Source of the DNA: Verrucomicrobiota bacterium
GTDB taxonomy: Bacteria > Verrucomicrobiota > Verrucomicrobiia > Limisphaerales > Pedosphaeraceae
Direction: 5' to 3'
DNA length: 64,000 nt
Assembly (NCBI GenBank): GCA_021325145.1
Contig: JAJPHR010000009.1
Coordinates: 62,001-126,000 of the forward strand
The notes beneath the pieces are model-generated. The model was not told where the DNA came from. It ran no database searches and saw nothing but the letters and a program-made list of their open reading frames with translations. The translations under genes and the position numbers were made by a program. Position 1 is the stretch's first letter, and each line of letters starts with the position of its first letter. Shown piece by piece: positions 47,769 through 61,310 of this stretch.

Positions 47769-49133
47769 TCAATGAGGAACCTCCTTTAAGGCAGGACACA
47801 ATCTGCCGGGAAACTCCAATTCCTGGCGAATATGTGCGCGCATTGCCTCTCGGTATTCACCCACCGACTCGAAAAAAGCGCACATCATCAGCATCAACCA
47901 ATACATCCCACGCTCGGTGAGCCGCCAGCCGTGTTCGTCCCGCCGTGCCGCGCCCAGCCATTCGAGCGTGCGCAGTTCGCCCCACAGCTTGCGAAAGAAG
48001 CGCGGCCCATATCGCCGCAAAGCCCATTCCCTGTCCAGCCCCAGCCCAAACATTTTCACCAGCAGAGTGTAACGCATTTGATCCCCTACGGAGAGCTGAT
48101 TTTCCACCACGATTCCCGTCAAGCCCTCCGCAACGCGCTTTTCGTAGGTGTCGAGGCAGAACGTTGTGGCGTAGAGCGTGCCGTCCAAATAACTAAATGC
48201 GCCGCTGCCGACGCCGACATAGAAATCGGCATCGACGAGATACTCGTCACTCGATCGACCGCGCCGGGTAAAACACCAGGCCGAGGATGGCGTAAATTCC
48301 GGCACGAGCCGGGCGAGAATGGTTTGGTAAAATTGACGGAGCCGGCGGCGATCAGGCAGGCCGGTCGAATCAGCCATCCGTTGAGCGACTCCCGGAGAAA
48401 TCATCAGCGGATAAAATGAAACCTGGTTCGCGCCCACTCCGCGGAGAATTTCGAGGTCGCGCTCCAGCGATGCCAGATCCTGGTGCGGCAAATTGAAAAT
48501 GAGGTCCACGTTCAGTGTCGGGAAAAATCCGGCGGCCTGGCGGAGGCGGTCCTGCGCTTCCGCGCCGCTGCCGTATTTTTCATAGCGCTGCATGTCCTTG
48601 AGCAACCGATCGTCGAAGCTCTGCACGCCGACGGATAACCGGGTGACGCCCGCCGCTCGCAATGGCTCGAGAATTTCCGGATGCAGGTCTTTCGGATTGG
48701 TCTCGACGGAAATGTCGCTCAAATCAAAAAGTTTGCGGGCCAATTCGATCGTCTCAACCAGTTCCTCCGGTTCCGTGGTGGGTGTGCCGCCGCCGAAATA
48801 TGCCGTGGAAAATCGGAACCCAGCGTCGTGGTAAAGCCGGATCTCCTCGCGCAACGAATGAAAATAACGTTGCGCCTGCCGGTGACAATGCTGCACCCGG
48901 TGGAAGGAACAGAACGGGCAAAGCGTCTCGCAAAAGGGAATGTGCACATAAAGACAGCCACATCCCCGGGCGGGCACCGGCGGAACGGTTCCGGGCGCGT
49001 CTTGCATTCGCAGAAACCCGCGCGTTCGAAACCGGAAAGTCCGGAGCAGAAACTCATCAACCAGGCCATACGCCCGGCGCATCGGGTGGAGGAACGAGAG
49101 TGGTGGCTCTTTTTTTGGCAACGTAAGCGTCAT
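47769..49133 (-). CDS. HemW/HemN-like radical SAM protein
   Basis: 454 residues from ATG 49133 (an upstream start at 49181 adds 16). YVHIPFCETLCPFCSF gives the CxxxCxxC cluster (Cys68, Cys72, Cys75), followed by YFGGGTPTTEPEELVE, VETNPKDLHPEIL, RLSVGVQSFDDRLLK and NVDLIFNLPHQD, the pattern of HemW/coproporphyrinogen oxidase-like proteins; the C-terminal half has the winged-helix-like region. It may be the heme chaperone HemW or a related oxidase; the extra 55 residues before the cluster are unusual. The family's cysteine after CPFC is Ser here, as in HemW. Confidence 0.85.
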   Translation of the reverse strand: MTLTLPKKEPPLSFLHPMRRAYGLVDEFLLRTFRFRTRGFLRMQDAPGTVPPVPARGCGCLYVHIPFCETLCPFCSFHRVQHCHRQAQRYFHSLREEIRLYHDAGFRFSTAYFGGGTPTTEPEELVETIELARKLFDLSDISVETNPKDLHPEILEPLRAAGVTRLSVGVQSFDDRLLKDMQRYEKYGSGAEAQDRLRQAAGFFPTLNVDLIFNLPHQDLASLERDLEILRGVGANQVSFYPLMISPGVAQRMADSTGLPDRRRLRQFYQTILARLVPEFTPSSAWCFTRRGRSSDEYLVDADFYVGVGSGAFSYLDGTLYATTFCLDTYEKRVAEGLTGIVVENQLSVGDQMRYTLLVKMFGLGLDREWALRRYGPRFFRKLWGELRTLEWLGAARRDEHGWRLTERGMYWLMLMMCAFFESVGEYREAMRAHIRQELEFPGRLCPALKEVPH

Positions 49134-49501
49134 AGCAACCCAGGTGTTTCCGTTCGCCGTCTTCCCCTGGTCGTGAAACAAGCCGGAGGCCTGTCACATT
49201 CTAGCGGCTCGTCTGCATCGCACCACACGCGATTTGTCAAAAGTTGCACGTTAGTTGCATAGCCTCCCAATATATAGGCTATTTTTCACAAAATCGGACA
49301 CCAAAAGTTCACTTGGATATGTAAAAAAGGAGAAGCCAAATGGACGCCATGTGATTCGGACTCTTTGTTCTGCACTCGCCTTTATTCGGTGTAAACCCCA
49401 CGGCGCTCTCTCCTCTTTTGGAGGGGGGAGAAAATGGCGGCGGCGCGCCCATCCGCATTCGCACCTGCAGCGGACTTGTCATTGCCTCCGCTTGTCGTAT
49501 C
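49134..49501. other. Gene-free stretch
   Basis: 368 bases. The plus strand holds a hairpin ATAGCCT/AGGCTAT followed by five T (49259-49286), terminator-like but with no plus-strand gene upstream, and a GTTGCA repeat pair just before it. The region also contains the promoters of the two divergent genes. Confidence 0.45.
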
Positions 49502-57111: not shown

Positions 57112-57855
57112 CTAGACGTGGAGAGGCGCGGAAGGCGACGGCGCAGTTGCCGCCGTGATCCTTTTCCGCCGTCGAACAAAACCAACCACTCCCAGTGCCA
57201 GCACCGCCAGCGCGGCGATTTGATACCCGCTGAAAGGACCAAGGATGTGCGGCTCCTGCCGGACGAACTCGTGCAAGAACCGGAAGATCCCGTACGAGAT
57301 CAAATACAGATGAAAATGCTGGCCCGCCAATTTTTTTTGACGCCGCAGGATGAAAAACGCGACGACCGCCACCGCATTAAAAAGGATTTCCATCGGCACC
57401 GCCGGCCAGCGCGACACGCCATCGGCGTCCTTCAGGGTGTACCAAGCCGGTTGGCAGGTGATTCCCTGGCAACAGCCGTGCAACAGGCATCCGACGCGTC
57501 CCACCATGATGCCGATGGGCGCGATGTACGCGAACCAGTCACCGGTTGCACCCGGATAACCCACCCATTTTTTCGCCAACTCGACCGCCAGGTAACCGCC
57601 CAACAGCGCGCCGAGAATTGACTTGCCCGTCGCGAGTTGCAACCACATGTCCGGCGCGCCAAAATGCAGCCAGCCCTCGGCGACTATATAAATCACCTTT
57701 GCTCCAAAAAACGCGCCACCCAACGCCGCCACATACACCATCAACAGACGATCGTCCCGCCGCGCCAGCCGCGACCAGAACAGAATGCTGATCGCGATGC
57801 CGCCGAGCATCAGCCAGCCGTAGGCAGTGGATTTGGGCAAAAGGTCGGTAGTCAT
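57112..57855 (-). CDS. Lgt-like protein without the HGG histidine
   Basis: 247 residues from ATG 57855. About seven helices; GIMVGRVGCLLHGCCQGITC carries the arginine and Gly-Cys-Cys of the Lgt signature, and SYGIFRFLHEFVRQEPHI matches the C-terminal YGxxRFxxE region. The canonical HGG loop is SILGALLGG here (residues 79-87), so the histidine needed by prolipoprotein diacylglyceryl transferase is missing. It may use the same phosphatidylglycerol-type donor chemistry on another acceptor, or have lost catalysis. It overlaps the upstream small membrane gene (TGATG) and follows the Tes-like radical SAM gene. Confidence 0.8.
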   Translation of the reverse strand: MTTDLLPKSTAYGWLMLGGIAISILFWSRLARRDDRLLMVYVAALGGAFFGAKVIYIVAEGWLHFGAPDMWLQLATGKSILGALLGGYLAVELAKKWVGYPGATGDWFAYIAPIGIMVGRVGCLLHGCCQGITCQPAWYTLKDADGVSRWPAVPMEILFNAVAVVAFFILRRQKKLAGQHFHLYLISYGIFRFLHEFVRQEPHILGPFSGYQIAALAVLALGVVGFVRRRKRITAATAPSPSAPLHV

Positions 57856-58163
57856 CAAAGGCCGCCCATGCTCATGATCCACGCGCTGCAACCCATGAAG
57901 AAAGCCATGCCCGCATTTAGAAGCAGGAAAATAATCCCCACAACGATGGAAGTTTTCGTTTTCCGTTTAAAGAGGATAAAAGAAGAGGTCACGCAACACC
58001 CCAGGCTTACTAACGCAACCGCGCTAAACGACAACACCGAAGGCGGGAGGCGCAAAGTGGCAAATGTGAGGAACAGAGCGGAGGGCACGAAGGCCAATAG
58101 AAGTGCAAACGCGGGTGATTTTCCCGGTGGTCTGCCGGCGGGTGGGGGTGACTCGGCATTCAT
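57855..58163 (-). CDS. Small three-helix membrane protein (102 aa)
   Basis: Three hydrophobic segments (about 16-38, 42-66 and 73-96) in a protein of 102 residues, with no motif I recognise. Its stop overlaps the start of the Lgt-like gene (TGATG), and it begins within ten bases of the end of the radical SAM gene, so all three are translated from one message. The start at 58163 is chosen instead of 58166 by the second methionine; both are possible. Confidence 0.7.
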   Translation of the reverse strand: MNAESPPPAGRPPGKSPAFALLLAFVPSALFLTFATLRLPPSVLSFSAVALVSLGCCVTSSFILFKRKTKTSIVVGIIFLLLNAGMAFFMGCSAWIMSMGGL

Positions 58164-58169
58164 CAAGTA

Positions 58170-59624
58170 TCAAGGCGCCCTTCGCACATCCGGAAATCCG
58201 GAATAATACCGGCAAAAGGAATCCAGCTTCCCATCCGGCCGGATTACATGCGTGCAACAACGATCGATCCGGTCCTCATCCCACGTCCAGGCATCCATGA
58301 ACGGTTTGATGAAGAGGCGAAACGTGTGGGATTCATCCAACTCGAATTGTTTGAGCAAATCGCCCAACGGCTCGGATTCGCAACCGCACTTCATCAAATC
58401 CTCAAGACGATAACGCACCTTGTCGTGCAGAAATCCCTGCACCTGGGTGAAATCGATGAAGTCGCTCACTGACCGAATGTGCCCGTCAATCTTCAATAGG
58501 TAACCAATCGTGGCGCAATTCGGATCACCACACGGCAACGGCGTGAAATCTTCAAACCTCAATTTCCCTTGTGACTGTTCCACCGCGGCGAGGATGACAT
58601 CCGCGGTGTTGAGCGCAGTCACTGGGCTGGAGGCGCGCGTTACGTCGGGGATACGTCCGCTATTAAACACCGGCTGAAAGCTGATTCCGCGAATGTGCGG
58701 ATACTTCAGCCCGAACTCGATGGCTTCCCACAAATGCGGCAGATTCTCCGGTGTGACCGTCATCGCGAGCGTGATGGGCAGGTTCATTTCCCGGCAGCGT
58801 TCGATGGCGCGTTCGCGCACCGACCGCAAGTCCGCCCCACGCAGGAAATGTTGCCCGTCCAATTGAGTGCCGTCGAATTGGAGATAAAGCTGGAAGCGCC
58901 GCCGTCGGGCAACTTCCGTCAATTGAGCCGCGAATGTTTCGTCCTGGGCAATGCGCAGTCCATTCGTATTCAGCAGCAGGTAATCAATGGCCGGATGCGC
59001 CTGCACCCATTCGACCAATTCGAAAAACTGCGGATGCAAGGTCGGTTCACCGCCGGAGAGTTGCAGGATTTCGATTCCGCCCTTGCGGTCGATCACGCCT
59101 TGAATCCGTTGCTTCAAGTTTTCCAGCGGCACCGCATCCACTTTATGACCGGCGCCGACCGGAGAATCCGCGTAGCAAGTCGGGCAAGCCAGGTTGCACG
59201 AGTTGACGATTTCAATCAGCGCGAGGCAGGTGGAAAGCTTCTCGAATGGGCCATCCCCTTTGCCACTGGCGTTGCGTCCGAGCGTGCCCGCCACGGAATT
59301 ATCCGCCACCGAAATGGCCGCGCCCTGGGGCAACTGAAGGTCAAGCACCGAACGCGTCGTGCCCGACGGGGAGCAACAATCCCCACCGCTGCAACAGCCG
59401 TTCTCGGAACTGCCCTTCGCCACCCAATAAAACCGCGCATCCGAAGCGATGCACACCGAAACCTCGCCGTGCGTCGGGCAGGCCCGCTTGAGGAAAACCT
59501 TGGACGGCTTCCCCGCGACGCGCCAAACCTCCGCCGGACAAGCCGCATGACACATCGGGCAGCGGCTCGTGGTGCGCTTGAGCAATTCCTCCTTTTGGAT
59601 GATAGGTAGAGTTGAAAAAGTCAT
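58170..59624 (-). CDS. Tes-like radical SAM protein (tetraether-synthase / class D methylase-like)
   Basis: 484 residues. An N-terminal zinc ribbon (Cys22, 25, 29, 49: RCPMCHAACPAEV, RACPTHGEV), a Cys-rich insert (GCCSGGDCCS), then the radical SAM cluster CNLACPTCY (Cys143, 147, 150), ILQLSGGEPTLHPQF and YLLLNTNGLRIAQDE. Late cysteines are in PCGDPNCATIGYLL, CGCESEP and RCCTHVIRPDGKLDSFCRYY. This layout is that of the COG1964 group, earlier called class D radical SAM methylases and now including archaeal tetraether synthase (MJ0619-type), which couples lipid tails. Function in bacteria is not settled. It heads an operon with a small membrane protein and an Lgt-like protein. Confidence 0.8.
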   Translation of the reverse strand: MTFSTLPIIQKEELLKRTTSRCPMCHAACPAEVWRVAGKPSKVFLKRACPTHGEVSVCIASDARFYWVAKGSSENGCCSGGDCCSPSGTTRSVLDLQLPQGAAISVADNSVAGTLGRNASGKGDGPFEKLSTCLALIEIVNSCNLACPTCYADSPVGAGHKVDAVPLENLKQRIQGVIDRKGGIEILQLSGGEPTLHPQFFELVEWVQAHPAIDYLLLNTNGLRIAQDETFAAQLTEVARRRRFQLYLQFDGTQLDGQHFLRGADLRSVRERAIERCREMNLPITLAMTVTPENLPHLWEAIEFGLKYPHIRGISFQPVFNSGRIPDVTRASSPVTALNTADVILAAVEQSQGKLRFEDFTPLPCGDPNCATIGYLLKIDGHIRSVSDFIDFTQVQGFLHDKVRYRLEDLMKCGCESEPLGDLLKQFELDESHTFRLFIKPFMDAWTWDEDRIDRCCTHVIRPDGKLDSFCRYYSGFPDVRRAP

Positions 59625-59630
59625 TAGGAT

Positions 59631-60056
59631 TTAATCAATTGTGAAATTCGGCGCGCAGCCTGCGCCAATAATCACAAAGTTCACCGCCGCGAGGACAAAA
59701 AGCAGGAAGAAAACCATTAGAAGGTTTAGCGAGCCAGATGGACCAAAACGCCGGGCAAGCCAAATACTGCAATAGAGGGAGCTTGCCAATCCAATCGGCA
59801 AAGCAATAAGGCCGATCGCCATGCCGAGGCCCCGTGTCTTGTCGCTCGTCCGGCCCACCAGGAAACTAAGCAGCGCCAGGAACGCGGGGGTGACCAACAA
59901 AATCCAGAACAGTGTCGGCGAACGGCGCCGCGATTCCTCGGGACCGCCTTTGGGAGTGTCTCCTTCAAAACCGCACTTGGGACAACAACGCAGCCCGCCT
60001 TGCAGGAGGGTCAAGCGGCTCTGGCATCTCGGGCAGATTTGGGGAACATCGTCCAT
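59631..60056 (-). CDS. Zinc-ribbon membrane protein (141 aa)
   Basis: 141 residues from the ATG at 60056; the frame to 60125 adds a non-helical piece. ICPRCQSRLTLLQGGLRCCPKCGFEG is a CxxC...CxxC zinc ribbon, followed by three membrane helices (about 50-70, 80-105 and 112-135). It precedes the radical SAM gene by six bases on the same strand and is probably cotranscribed with it. The function is not known. Confidence 0.75.
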   Translation of the reverse strand: MDDVPQICPRCQSRLTLLQGGLRCCPKCGFEGDTPKGGPEESRRRSPTLFWILLVTPAFLALLSFLVGRTSDKTRGLGMAIGLIALPIGLASSLYCSIWLARRFGPSGSLNLLMVFFLLFVLAAVNFVIIGAGCAPNFTID

Positions 60057-60130
60057 AATGGGAGTAAACCACCTTAACCCCGAGGCCTCTCGGAAGTTCG
60101 CCAGGTCTTTGTTCCGGAGGGACACCCGAA

Positions 60131-60284
60131 AATAGCCCAGCGATTGATCGCTGGGTGATGCGCAGAAGGCTCAAAAGCCCCGGAGGGGCGAAAGAGAACG
60201 CCCGGTTTCACCACGATATTCTTTCGTCCCTGATGGGACTCATGTCGCTCGCGGCTCACCCACCGATAAATCGGTGGGCTATTC
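60131..60284. repeat. MITE-like element with 30-base terminal inverted repeats
   Basis: AATAGCCCAGCGAT...ATCGCTGGG (60131-60160) and, inverted, CCCACCGAT...ATCGGTGGGCTATT (60255-60285), each with a perfect 9-bp palindrome, flank about 95 bases. The centre also pairs (GGGCGAAAGA with TCTTTCGTCC). There is no transposase. It lies between the zinc-ribbon gene and a small membrane-protein gene. Confidence 0.75.
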
Positions 60285-60333
60285 GCTTTCGCCCTGCCGG
60301 GCTGGCTGTGGAAATTTCCGAAAGGCATAGGCG

Positions 60334-60735
60334 CTATTTTGGCTGCGGCACGCCCGCGGTCGAGCGTGGGTAACATGCCAAATATGCAACTGTAACCAAT
60401 CCTGCCACGATGATTCCAACCCCCGCTTGCTGGAACGTCACCAACCCGCGCGCGAGGAAAACCGACCCCAAAAGGCACTCCAGCAACCCGCGCGCGATGC
60501 CCATTTGCGCCCACACGAGGTGGCGCAGTGGGTTCGTGGCCGCCACTGTATAACCGAATCCAAGCGTCACCAGCACGCAACCCCACAGCCCCAAAATATA
60601 ATGCACCCCCACGGGCAGGTCCTTGAACCGGAACGCCGCTTCAACGTGGGCGGGAAAAAAGATCAGCAGCAATCCCAACAACAGGAGCACCGCCGCATCC
60701 AGTAACATGAGGTTCCGCAAGAGCGAGAGTTTCAT
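60334..60735 (-). CDS. Small hypothetical membrane protein (133 aa)
   Basis: 133 residues from ATG 60735, since the upstream frame to 60846 is basic and not membrane-like. Four helices (about 10-30, 42-65, 75-98 and 103-123) with a basic C-terminus. No motif. The family is not recognised; it lies next to the palindromic element and downstream of two zinc-ribbon proteins. Confidence 0.6.
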   Translation of the reverse strand: MKLSLLRNLMLLDAAVLLLLGLLLIFFPAHVEAAFRFKDLPVGVHYILGLWGCVLVTLGFGYTVAATNPLRHLVWAQMGIARGLLECLLGSVFLARGLVTFQQAGVGIIVAGLVTVAYLACYPRSTAGVPQPK

Positions 60736-60764: not shown

Positions 60765-61043
60765 TCAATGATGCCCGGATATCATGACGACACAACCCGC
60801 GAAGAGCACCGCCAACCCCACTAACACGATGACCACCATGAAGCAAACCACCTTCACGATCGCGAGAAAAATATCGCCCACGGCTTGCCCAAAATCAGAC
60901 TCCGGCTTCTCGCTGGCCGGGGCGCCACCCGGCACCCGATACTGGAAACGCATGCCGCATTCCGGGCAGGTGGGAATTCGCCCCTCGATCATCAAGGTCA
61001 CCTCTTTCTGGCAGCGCGGACAAACTACCATTGAGTCGTTCAT
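60765..61043 (-). CDS. Zinc-ribbon single-helix protein (92 aa)
   Basis: VCPRCQKEVTLMIEGRIPTCPECGM is a CxxC-CxxC zinc ribbon (residues 8-30), then a linker of 20 residues and one or two C-terminal helices (about 55-88). It is clearly similar to the neighbour at 61050 (86 aa), so the two are a tandem duplication. The protein is probably a membrane-anchored zinc-ribbon regulator or assembly factor. Confidence 0.7.
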   Translation of the reverse strand: MNDSMVVCPRCQKEVTLMIEGRIPTCPECGMRFQYRVPGGAPASEKPESDFGQAVGDIFLAIVKVVCFMVVIVLVGLAVLFAGCVVMISGHH

Positions 61044-61049
61044 AATAAT

Positions 61050-61310
61050 TTAGTGCGTGGCAAGAAGCGCCGCGCAGCCGGCGTAAACAATCGCCGCGCC
61101 CACCAGCATGATGACTGCGATCACCAGGGTCATCTTGACCAGCGGCTTGAGGAGAACATTCCAATCAGAATTGGCGTTCGGCTTCTCGGCTCCCTGGCTG
61201 GTCTCGCGTTTAAACTCAAACTCACAATTTGGACATTTCGCGAGCGGGGATCCGGCTGGAAAAACGACTTCGCGCCGGCATTGCGGACAAATGGCTCTGG
61301 CTTCATTCAT
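61050..61310 (-). CDS. Zinc-ribbon single-helix protein (86 aa), paralog
   Basis: ICPQCRREVVFPAGSPLAKC with PNCEFEF gives the same CxxC-CxxC ribbon as the neighbour, then a linker and a helix near 57-82. The gap to the next gene is six bases, so the pair is cotranscribed. Three zinc-ribbon membrane proteins occur between 59.6 and 61.3 kb. Confidence 0.7.
   Translation of the reverse strand: MNEARAICPQCRREVVFPAGSPLAKCPNCEFEFKRETSQGAEKPNANSDWNVLLKPLVKMTLVIAVIMLVGAAIVYAGCAALLATH

Follow-up and report, generated by a model that had tools for sequence, protein, structure and literature searches.

The window analysed here, 64,000 nucleotides of contig JAJPHR010000009.1 (assembly GCA_021325145.1, positions 62,001 to 126,000 of the forward strand) from a Verrucomicrobiota bacterium of the family Pedosphaeraceae, carries a minus-strand run of seven genes, read from position 61310 down to 57112, which encode in this order proteins of 86, 92, 133 and 141 amino acids, a radical S-adenosylmethionine (SAM) enzyme, a 102-residue protein and a protein resembling the lipoprotein diacylglyceryl transferase Lgt (Table 1). 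An earlier, sequence-only reading had taken the last three genes for an operon that may make an unusual membrane-spanning or modified lipid. The three genes are indeed present, in tandem and on the minus strand, and the stop codon of the 102-residue protein and the ATG of the Lgt-like protein (57855) share one base (TGATG), in agreement with the overlap described there; the gap behind the radical SAM gene, put at ten bases, counts 6 nt up to the ATG at 58163, and another 6 nt separate the radical SAM gene from that of the 141-residue protein upstream. The extent of the operon had been underestimated, as more Cys-tailed proteins are encoded upstream, and the main omission was that the 102-residue protein belongs to a class of small membrane proteins that share an invariant Gly-Cys near the C terminus. 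The radical SAM enzyme, the Lgt-like protein and the Cys-tailed small proteins very probably form a three-part system. Its components, together with their linkage, co-occurrence and folds and the conservation of the Cys, were all obtained by computation.

A scan of named genomes returned 426 relatives, and linkage was counted in the best 80 of these loci, all from this phylum except for one whose record bears the name delta proteobacterium, probably in error. An Lgt-like gene lies 3' of the radical SAM gene on the same strand at 71 of the 80 loci, within 500 nt at 58 of them, and two of the nine loci without a linked Lgt-like gene have a contig ending there; the conserved neighbourhood that the sequence-only reading had anticipated is thus present. 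The two enzymes also occur together: among 58 relatives the radical SAM enzyme is found in 16, the Lgt-like protein in 16 and both in 15 (p 8e-12), the two discordant cases being a contig-edge fragment and a genome that is 57% complete. Across 289 genomes of the phylum, close relatives of either enzyme are confined to the same six, in one of which they lie on separate contigs. A further conserved neighbour was rejected, since no other protein family was counted in more than six of the loci examined. In the radical SAM tree, where L145 bears the label "other" since its Lgt-like neighbour came to light only afterwards, the label "Lgt-linked" changes at least three times, so that the association either is ancient and was lost in places, or arose repeatedly.

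The third part consists of hypervariable small membrane proteins in which the last helix ends in a Gly-Cys that is nearly invariant and leaves only 3-15 residues to the C terminus. The window operon encodes four of them, the 102-residue protein included. Defined for the search as proteins of 55-320 residues that adjoin the radical SAM gene, have a helix at the C-terminal end and carry a Cys at -4 to -17, they were found at 67 of the 74 loci that could be tested, in many cases several at one locus (up to four); at least two (L076, L094) of the seven loci scored as having none do have one that the definition missed. With the class present at so many loci, the idea that the 102-residue protein is incidental was rejected. 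The consensus is F-x-G-C, the Cys being preceded by Gly in 57%, Ala in 10% and Ser in 7%, with Phe in 53% at -3. Alignments of these proteins have a mean identity of 18-21%, and 90% or more is attained only by the start Met, by the Gly-Cys and by one Pro located in the first helix. As the proteins were gathered by their Cys, its conservation in these alignments comes partly from the selection of the sequences; independent support for the motif is provided by the density of such proteins, by the preceding Gly and by co-occurrence with the enzymes. In the vicinity of the genes, 194 kb contain 64 multi-helix Cys-tailed proteins, whereas random sequence taken from this genome and one relative contains 2 in 400 kb; the far flanks of these loci contain none. 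At E<1e-5, a small-protein profile detects members in 14 of the 16 genomes with the enzymes and in 0 of the 42 without (p 1e-11); the remaining two enzyme genomes (G015, G026) encode zinc-ribbon forms, found by eye, that end in FASCAFHF and FGGCLLVLRNMKF. The phylum-wide search with this profile, in which 15 candidates were scored per genome, was insensitive. The motif is kept in unlinked copies (G010, G047) and recurs in distant tails: ...GICGSLLS in Persicobacter, ...GVCTGLNP on Mycobacterium plasmids, ...GSCFAL at L146 and L147, and ...GVCFNILKDL at L145 and L203, with the Lgt-like gene directly upstream. Tes-like genes in other contexts (linked to methyltransferase, DUF547 or ketosynthase and acyl carrier protein genes) have no Cys-tailed neighbour.

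Table 1. Features of the operon and its putative components, in coordinates of the window
Feature	Position	Strand	Basis or remark
Radical SAM protein, Tes/TrsS superfamily, 484 aa	58170-59624 (start 59624)	minus	profile matches, fold, Cys motifs
Lgt-family membrane protein, 247 aa	57112-57855	minus	PF01790 match, fold, retained Lgt residues
Small protein with three transmembrane helices, 102 aa, between the radical SAM and Lgt-like genes; C-terminal end FFMGCSAWIMSMGGL	57855-58163	minus	
Small membrane protein, about 141 aa, zinc-ribbon N terminus, three transmembrane helices; C-terminal end VIIGAGCAPNFTID	59631-60056	minus	
Small membrane protein, 92 aa, zinc-ribbon N terminus, one transmembrane helix; C-terminal end VLFAGCVVMISGHH	60765-61043	minus	
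Small membrane protein, 86 aa, zinc-ribbon N terminus, one transmembrane helix; C-terminal end IVYAGCAALLATH	61050-61310	minus	
Membrane protein, 133 aa, without C-terminal Cys	60334-60735	minus	membership in the system uncertain

Look-alikes of the 133-residue protein are encoded upstream of the radical SAM gene in several relatives (for example L057, L061, L076 and L124); they end in ...AYLALYPR, and the 133-residue protein has no Pfam match. The intergenic stretch at 60130-60330 (minus strand) contains palindrome-like pieces, CCCACCGATTTATCGGTGGG and CAGCGATCAATCGCTG, and resembles a mobile repeat within the operon. Elsewhere in the window, 47769-49181 (minus strand) encodes a protein of the HemN-like coproporphyrinogen III oxidase family (NF006385, 415 bits, above the cut-off).

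Among curated families, the radical SAM protein scores highest against TrsS (NF045646, 225.1 bits, cut-off 490), and the match to Tes that the earlier reading had led one to expect was obtained, at a score (NF045702, 164.7 bits) far below the cut-off of 450. All 63 aligned relatives match both models, with a best Tes E-value of 1.4e-53. By sequence, the sole close solved structure is the Methanocaldococcus jannaschii protein GDGT-MAS (7TOL, E 4e-36; profile E 8e-48), and an AlphaFold2 model (mean pLDDT, the predicted local distance difference test, 80.6) aligns with 7TOM over residues 11-484 (Z 36.4, root-mean-square deviation 3.0, 398 residues aligned), the next-best fold family being MoaA with a Z of 19. 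The Tes-like layout of cysteines read from the sequence holds for the rubredoxin-type Cys2-Cys/His site (C22, C25, C49, H52) and for the CX3CX2C motif (C143, C147, C150), which nearly all relatives keep; a further C-terminal set comprises C365, C370, C413, C415, C456, C457 and C471. It fails at the N-terminal auxiliary [Fe4S4]N motif, CX3CX2C..H (C73, C77, C80 and a His), which is absent from the clade of the window, from a second copy in the same genome (C5) and from the Mycobacterium forms, and present in those of Persicobacter, L145, L146 and L147. Met439 and Tyr459, invariant in archaeal Tes and dispensable in vitro (PMC9433317), are replaced by Lys440 and Val460. The protein uses the Tes scaffold but is no member of Tes; assignment to either Tes or TrsS was rejected on account of scores below both cut-offs and the missing motifs. 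Two other candidates were discarded: selenocysteine, because the TGA within one match (G335) is an ordinary stop codon, and a defence system, for which there is only a general viperin likeness of the radical SAM core and a weak match of one small protein.

With TrsS as the best-scoring family, one for which we know of no proven lipid substrate, and with zinc ribbons in many of the small proteins, the substrate of the radical SAM enzyme might be a protein or related to metals; the Lgt-like protein would then be a membrane anchor with altered catalysis, and the Cys tails would bind metal or form disulfides. We consider this very improbable, as the constant partner has a phospholipid-binding fold with conserved Lgt arginines and each tail has a single Cys in a lipobox-like context.

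Similar radical SAM genes are found in other settings. At L051 (3093-16013) and L050 (978-10461), from the same family, another Tes-like enzyme is encoded among ketosynthase, short-chain dehydrogenase, acyl-carrier-like, B12-type radical SAM and GH3 genes, a setting that resembles an unusual fatty-acid or ladderane-like cluster (Pfam was run on L051 only). A Burkholderia glumae plasmid (L198, 726-6039) has a TrsS-like radical SAM gene near a DUF547 gene and arsS, of arsenosugar biosynthesis. On haloarchaeal plasmids, similar radical SAM genes are combined with a methyltransferase, in two cases also near DUF547 and a peroxiredoxin-type gene.

The Lgt-like protein matches Pfam PF01790 with 90 bits (cut-off 24.9) and stays below the cut-offs of the curated equivalogs TIGR00544 (39 bits against 118.9) and NF000778 (72 against 334); its model (pLDDT 93.6) aligns with Escherichia coli Lgt (5AZB) with a Z of 12.6. 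A separate, normal Lgt is encoded elsewhere in the same genome. In an alignment that includes 14 housekeeping Lgts of the order, the Lgt-like paralogs form a clade apart, and those of this phylum keep equivalents of Y26, R143, G154, Y235, R239, E243 and R246. Two details given earlier from the sequence stand, namely that Arg120, which aligns with R143, is kept and that SILGALLGG takes the place of the H103 region, and the retained phosphatidylglycerol-binding arginines agree with the proposal that this partner handles a glycerolipid. The GCC signature and the loss of His do not set the paralog apart: housekeeping Lgts of the order also have GRxGCxx(N/T)GCC, with Tyr at the H103 position in 12 of 14, His in one and Asn in one, and that of the same genome has GCC and Tyr. 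A new Lgt function deduced from these two features was rejected for that reason. Distinctive of the paralogs is the change, at the H103 region, from GG[LF]-V/I-[FY]-[YHN]-GG to G[KR][ST]I[LVTMA]G (G[KR][ST]I-x-G), and in those of Verrucomicrobiota R73 is replaced by Lys.

The second pair in the same genome, C5 (L006, 9696-14543, minus strand), consists of a Tes-like radical SAM enzyme (33% identity) and an Lgt-like gene, with a ferritin-like 239-residue protein between the enzymes, an adjoining fatty-acid hydroxylase and two related small membrane proteins. Distant pairs occur in another class, at L146 (6097-9103, minus strand) and L147 (5773-8779, minus strand), with a PEMT/ICMT-type methyltransferase between the enzymes, and further ones at L145 and L203, in Persicobacter (Bacteroidota), in Nonomuraea and on two Mycobacterium plasmids. 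Eukaryotic ICMT enzymes act on lipidated C-terminal cysteines, which makes such a methyltransferase beside a C-terminal-Cys protein at L146 and L147 suggestive. The hydroxylase and the methyltransferases bear out the lipid theme of the sequence-only reading. These neighbours, the Tes fold over the full length of the radical SAM protein and the phospholipid-binding arginines of its partner would suit a pathway for membrane lipids, in which the lipid tails are coupled or modified by the radical SAM enzyme and the Lgt-like protein takes care of the glycerolipid head, while the small proteins, with a structural Cys, act as scaffolds or in assembly. Such a pathway leaves unexplained, however, why hypervariable proteins, up to four per locus, retain only a C-terminal Gly-Cys, and the residues specific to Tes are absent from the radical SAM protein; we regard it as unlikely. 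The Gly-Cys class suggests lipid attachment to proteins, instead of or besides a free membrane-spanning lipid.

In the mechanism that we favour, the N terminus of each small protein, in many cases a zinc ribbon or a Pro-rich segment, would stay in the cytoplasm on insertion, the last helix would point outward, and the invariant [GA]-Cys would end up at the outer surface, just ahead of the 3-15-residue tail. A mean net charge of +1.7 before the last helix and the N-terminal zinc ribbon of the one-helix members suggest this N-in/C-out topology, with the Cys at a position like that of the lipobox Cys; the geometry would be that of a lipoprotein signal peptide (basic, hydrophobic, lipobox Cys) moved to the C terminus. 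E. coli Lgt acts at this outer face, with phosphatidylglycerol. The Lgt-like enzyme would likewise bind a glycerophospholipid via its retained arginines and may move a (di)acylglyceryl group to the Cys thiol, and we give lipidation of the C-terminal Cys about an even chance. The radical SAM enzyme is presumably cytoplasmic, with the outer Cys out of its reach, which makes lipid chains, as with Tes, the likelier substrate; with Tes-like lipid pockets it may alter the chain ends by coupling, methylation or sulfur insertion, either before or after the transfer to Cys. Its action on lipid chains is the least certain step, and coupling of chain ends is not to be assumed with Met439, Tyr459 and the [Fe4S4]N motif missing. 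The topology, the lipidation, the lipid as substrate and the order of steps are the parts that we infer, and the mechanism as a whole, in which the Lgt-like protein lipidates the Cys and the radical SAM enzyme modifies lipid chains, is put forward tentatively, as falling somewhat short of an even chance. A more specific version, a "C-terminal lipobox" on whose Cys the Lgt paralog places a glycerolipid and whose chains the radical SAM enzyme couples or remodels, possibly into a protein-bound membrane-spanning lipid, is rather doubtful.

Several findings weigh against the favoured mechanism. Its topology is based on charge and hydropathy only; the motif is unlike a classical lipobox in having F, not L, at -3, and actinobacterial forms have V, I or Y before the Cys; no Cys-tailed protein was seen near the C5 pair; and the three Tes features just named are lacking. 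Of the six essential residues of E. coli Lgt (Y26, H103, R143, N146, G154, R239), the Lgt-like protein keeps four, H103 being replaced by L/V/T/M/I and N146 by C. Since the housekeeping Lgts also have N146C and mostly H103Y, these two changes are weak evidence against activity, and variation at both positions across Lgts has been published (PMC13251419).

The short variable tails behind the Cys and the several paralogs per locus would also fit peptide maturation, for which hybrids of lipoproteins with ribosomally synthesized and post-translationally modified peptides (RiPPs) are a published precedent (PMC12636315). The Lgt-like protein would lipidate the Cys, the signal peptidase LspA would cut before it, freeing a lipopeptide of 4-16 residues made up of Cys plus tail, and the radical SAM enzyme would modify the lipid or the peptide. 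A removable signal peptide would not have the three helices seen in most members, and no conserved peptidase or exporter adjoins the genes, which leaves this explanation improbable.

Bacterial relatives of archaeal tetraether synthase are widespread, and their function has been proposed from analogy only. For one branch of these relatives, the locus identifies an enzyme that is constantly associated and a well-delimited group of likely substrates. The system is present in genomes named for cultivable species (Chthoniobacter flavus Ellin428, Luteolibacter marinus and Verrucomicrobium strains) as well as on Mycobacterium plasmids. Should the C-terminal Cys carry a lipid, this would be protein lipidation at a position and in a geometry undescribed in the literature that we found, with a radical enzyme in the pathway, and among the Lgt-family proteins that are routinely labelled lipoprotein transferases there would be a separate activity.

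In the open-access literature no description was found of the radical SAM-Lgt pair, of the trio or of a C-terminal lipobox; for bacterial Tes homologs, synthesis of membrane-spanning lipids has been proposed without proof (PMC8941075, PMC11868695). The radical SAM protein shares with Tes (GDGT-MAS, MJ0619; 7TOL, 7TOM) the full-length fold, the rubredoxin-type site, CX3CX2C and the C-terminal region with the CC...H and FC motifs; it differs in an identity of 27% over the structural alignment, a score far under the cut-off, and Lys and Val in place of Met439 and Tyr459. TrsS is its top-scoring family, but it reaches less than half of the 490-bit cut-off, is without the methyltransferase partner and shows no selenocysteine. 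The Lgt-like protein has the fold of Lgt (PF01790; 5AZB) and the residues listed above, whereas GK[ST]I-x-G instead of (H/Y)GG and a clade of its own set it apart. MYXO-CTERM and related Cys-containing C-terminal sorting signals, which go with myxosortase, likewise have an invariant Cys near the C terminus, for which lipidation by an Lgt-like enzyme has been proposed, with the Cys ahead of the helix (PMC11980579). There the order is Cys, helix and Arg-rich cytoplasmic tail, whereas here it is basic stretch, helix, Cys and short tail, so that the MYXO-CTERM signature is absent; the Cys-tailed proteins are small polytopic membrane proteins, and no myxosortase-like gene was seen among the conserved neighbours at the loci. 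DAG-RiPPs, the RiPP-lipoprotein hybrids, pass small precursors through the normal N-terminal lipoprotein route with MNIO enzymes (PMC12636315). They resemble the present system in directing a lipoprotein pathway at small precursors beside a metalloenzyme, and differ from it in that here the enzyme is a Tes-like radical SAM protein, the Lgt paralog is dedicated and the Cys is C-terminal.

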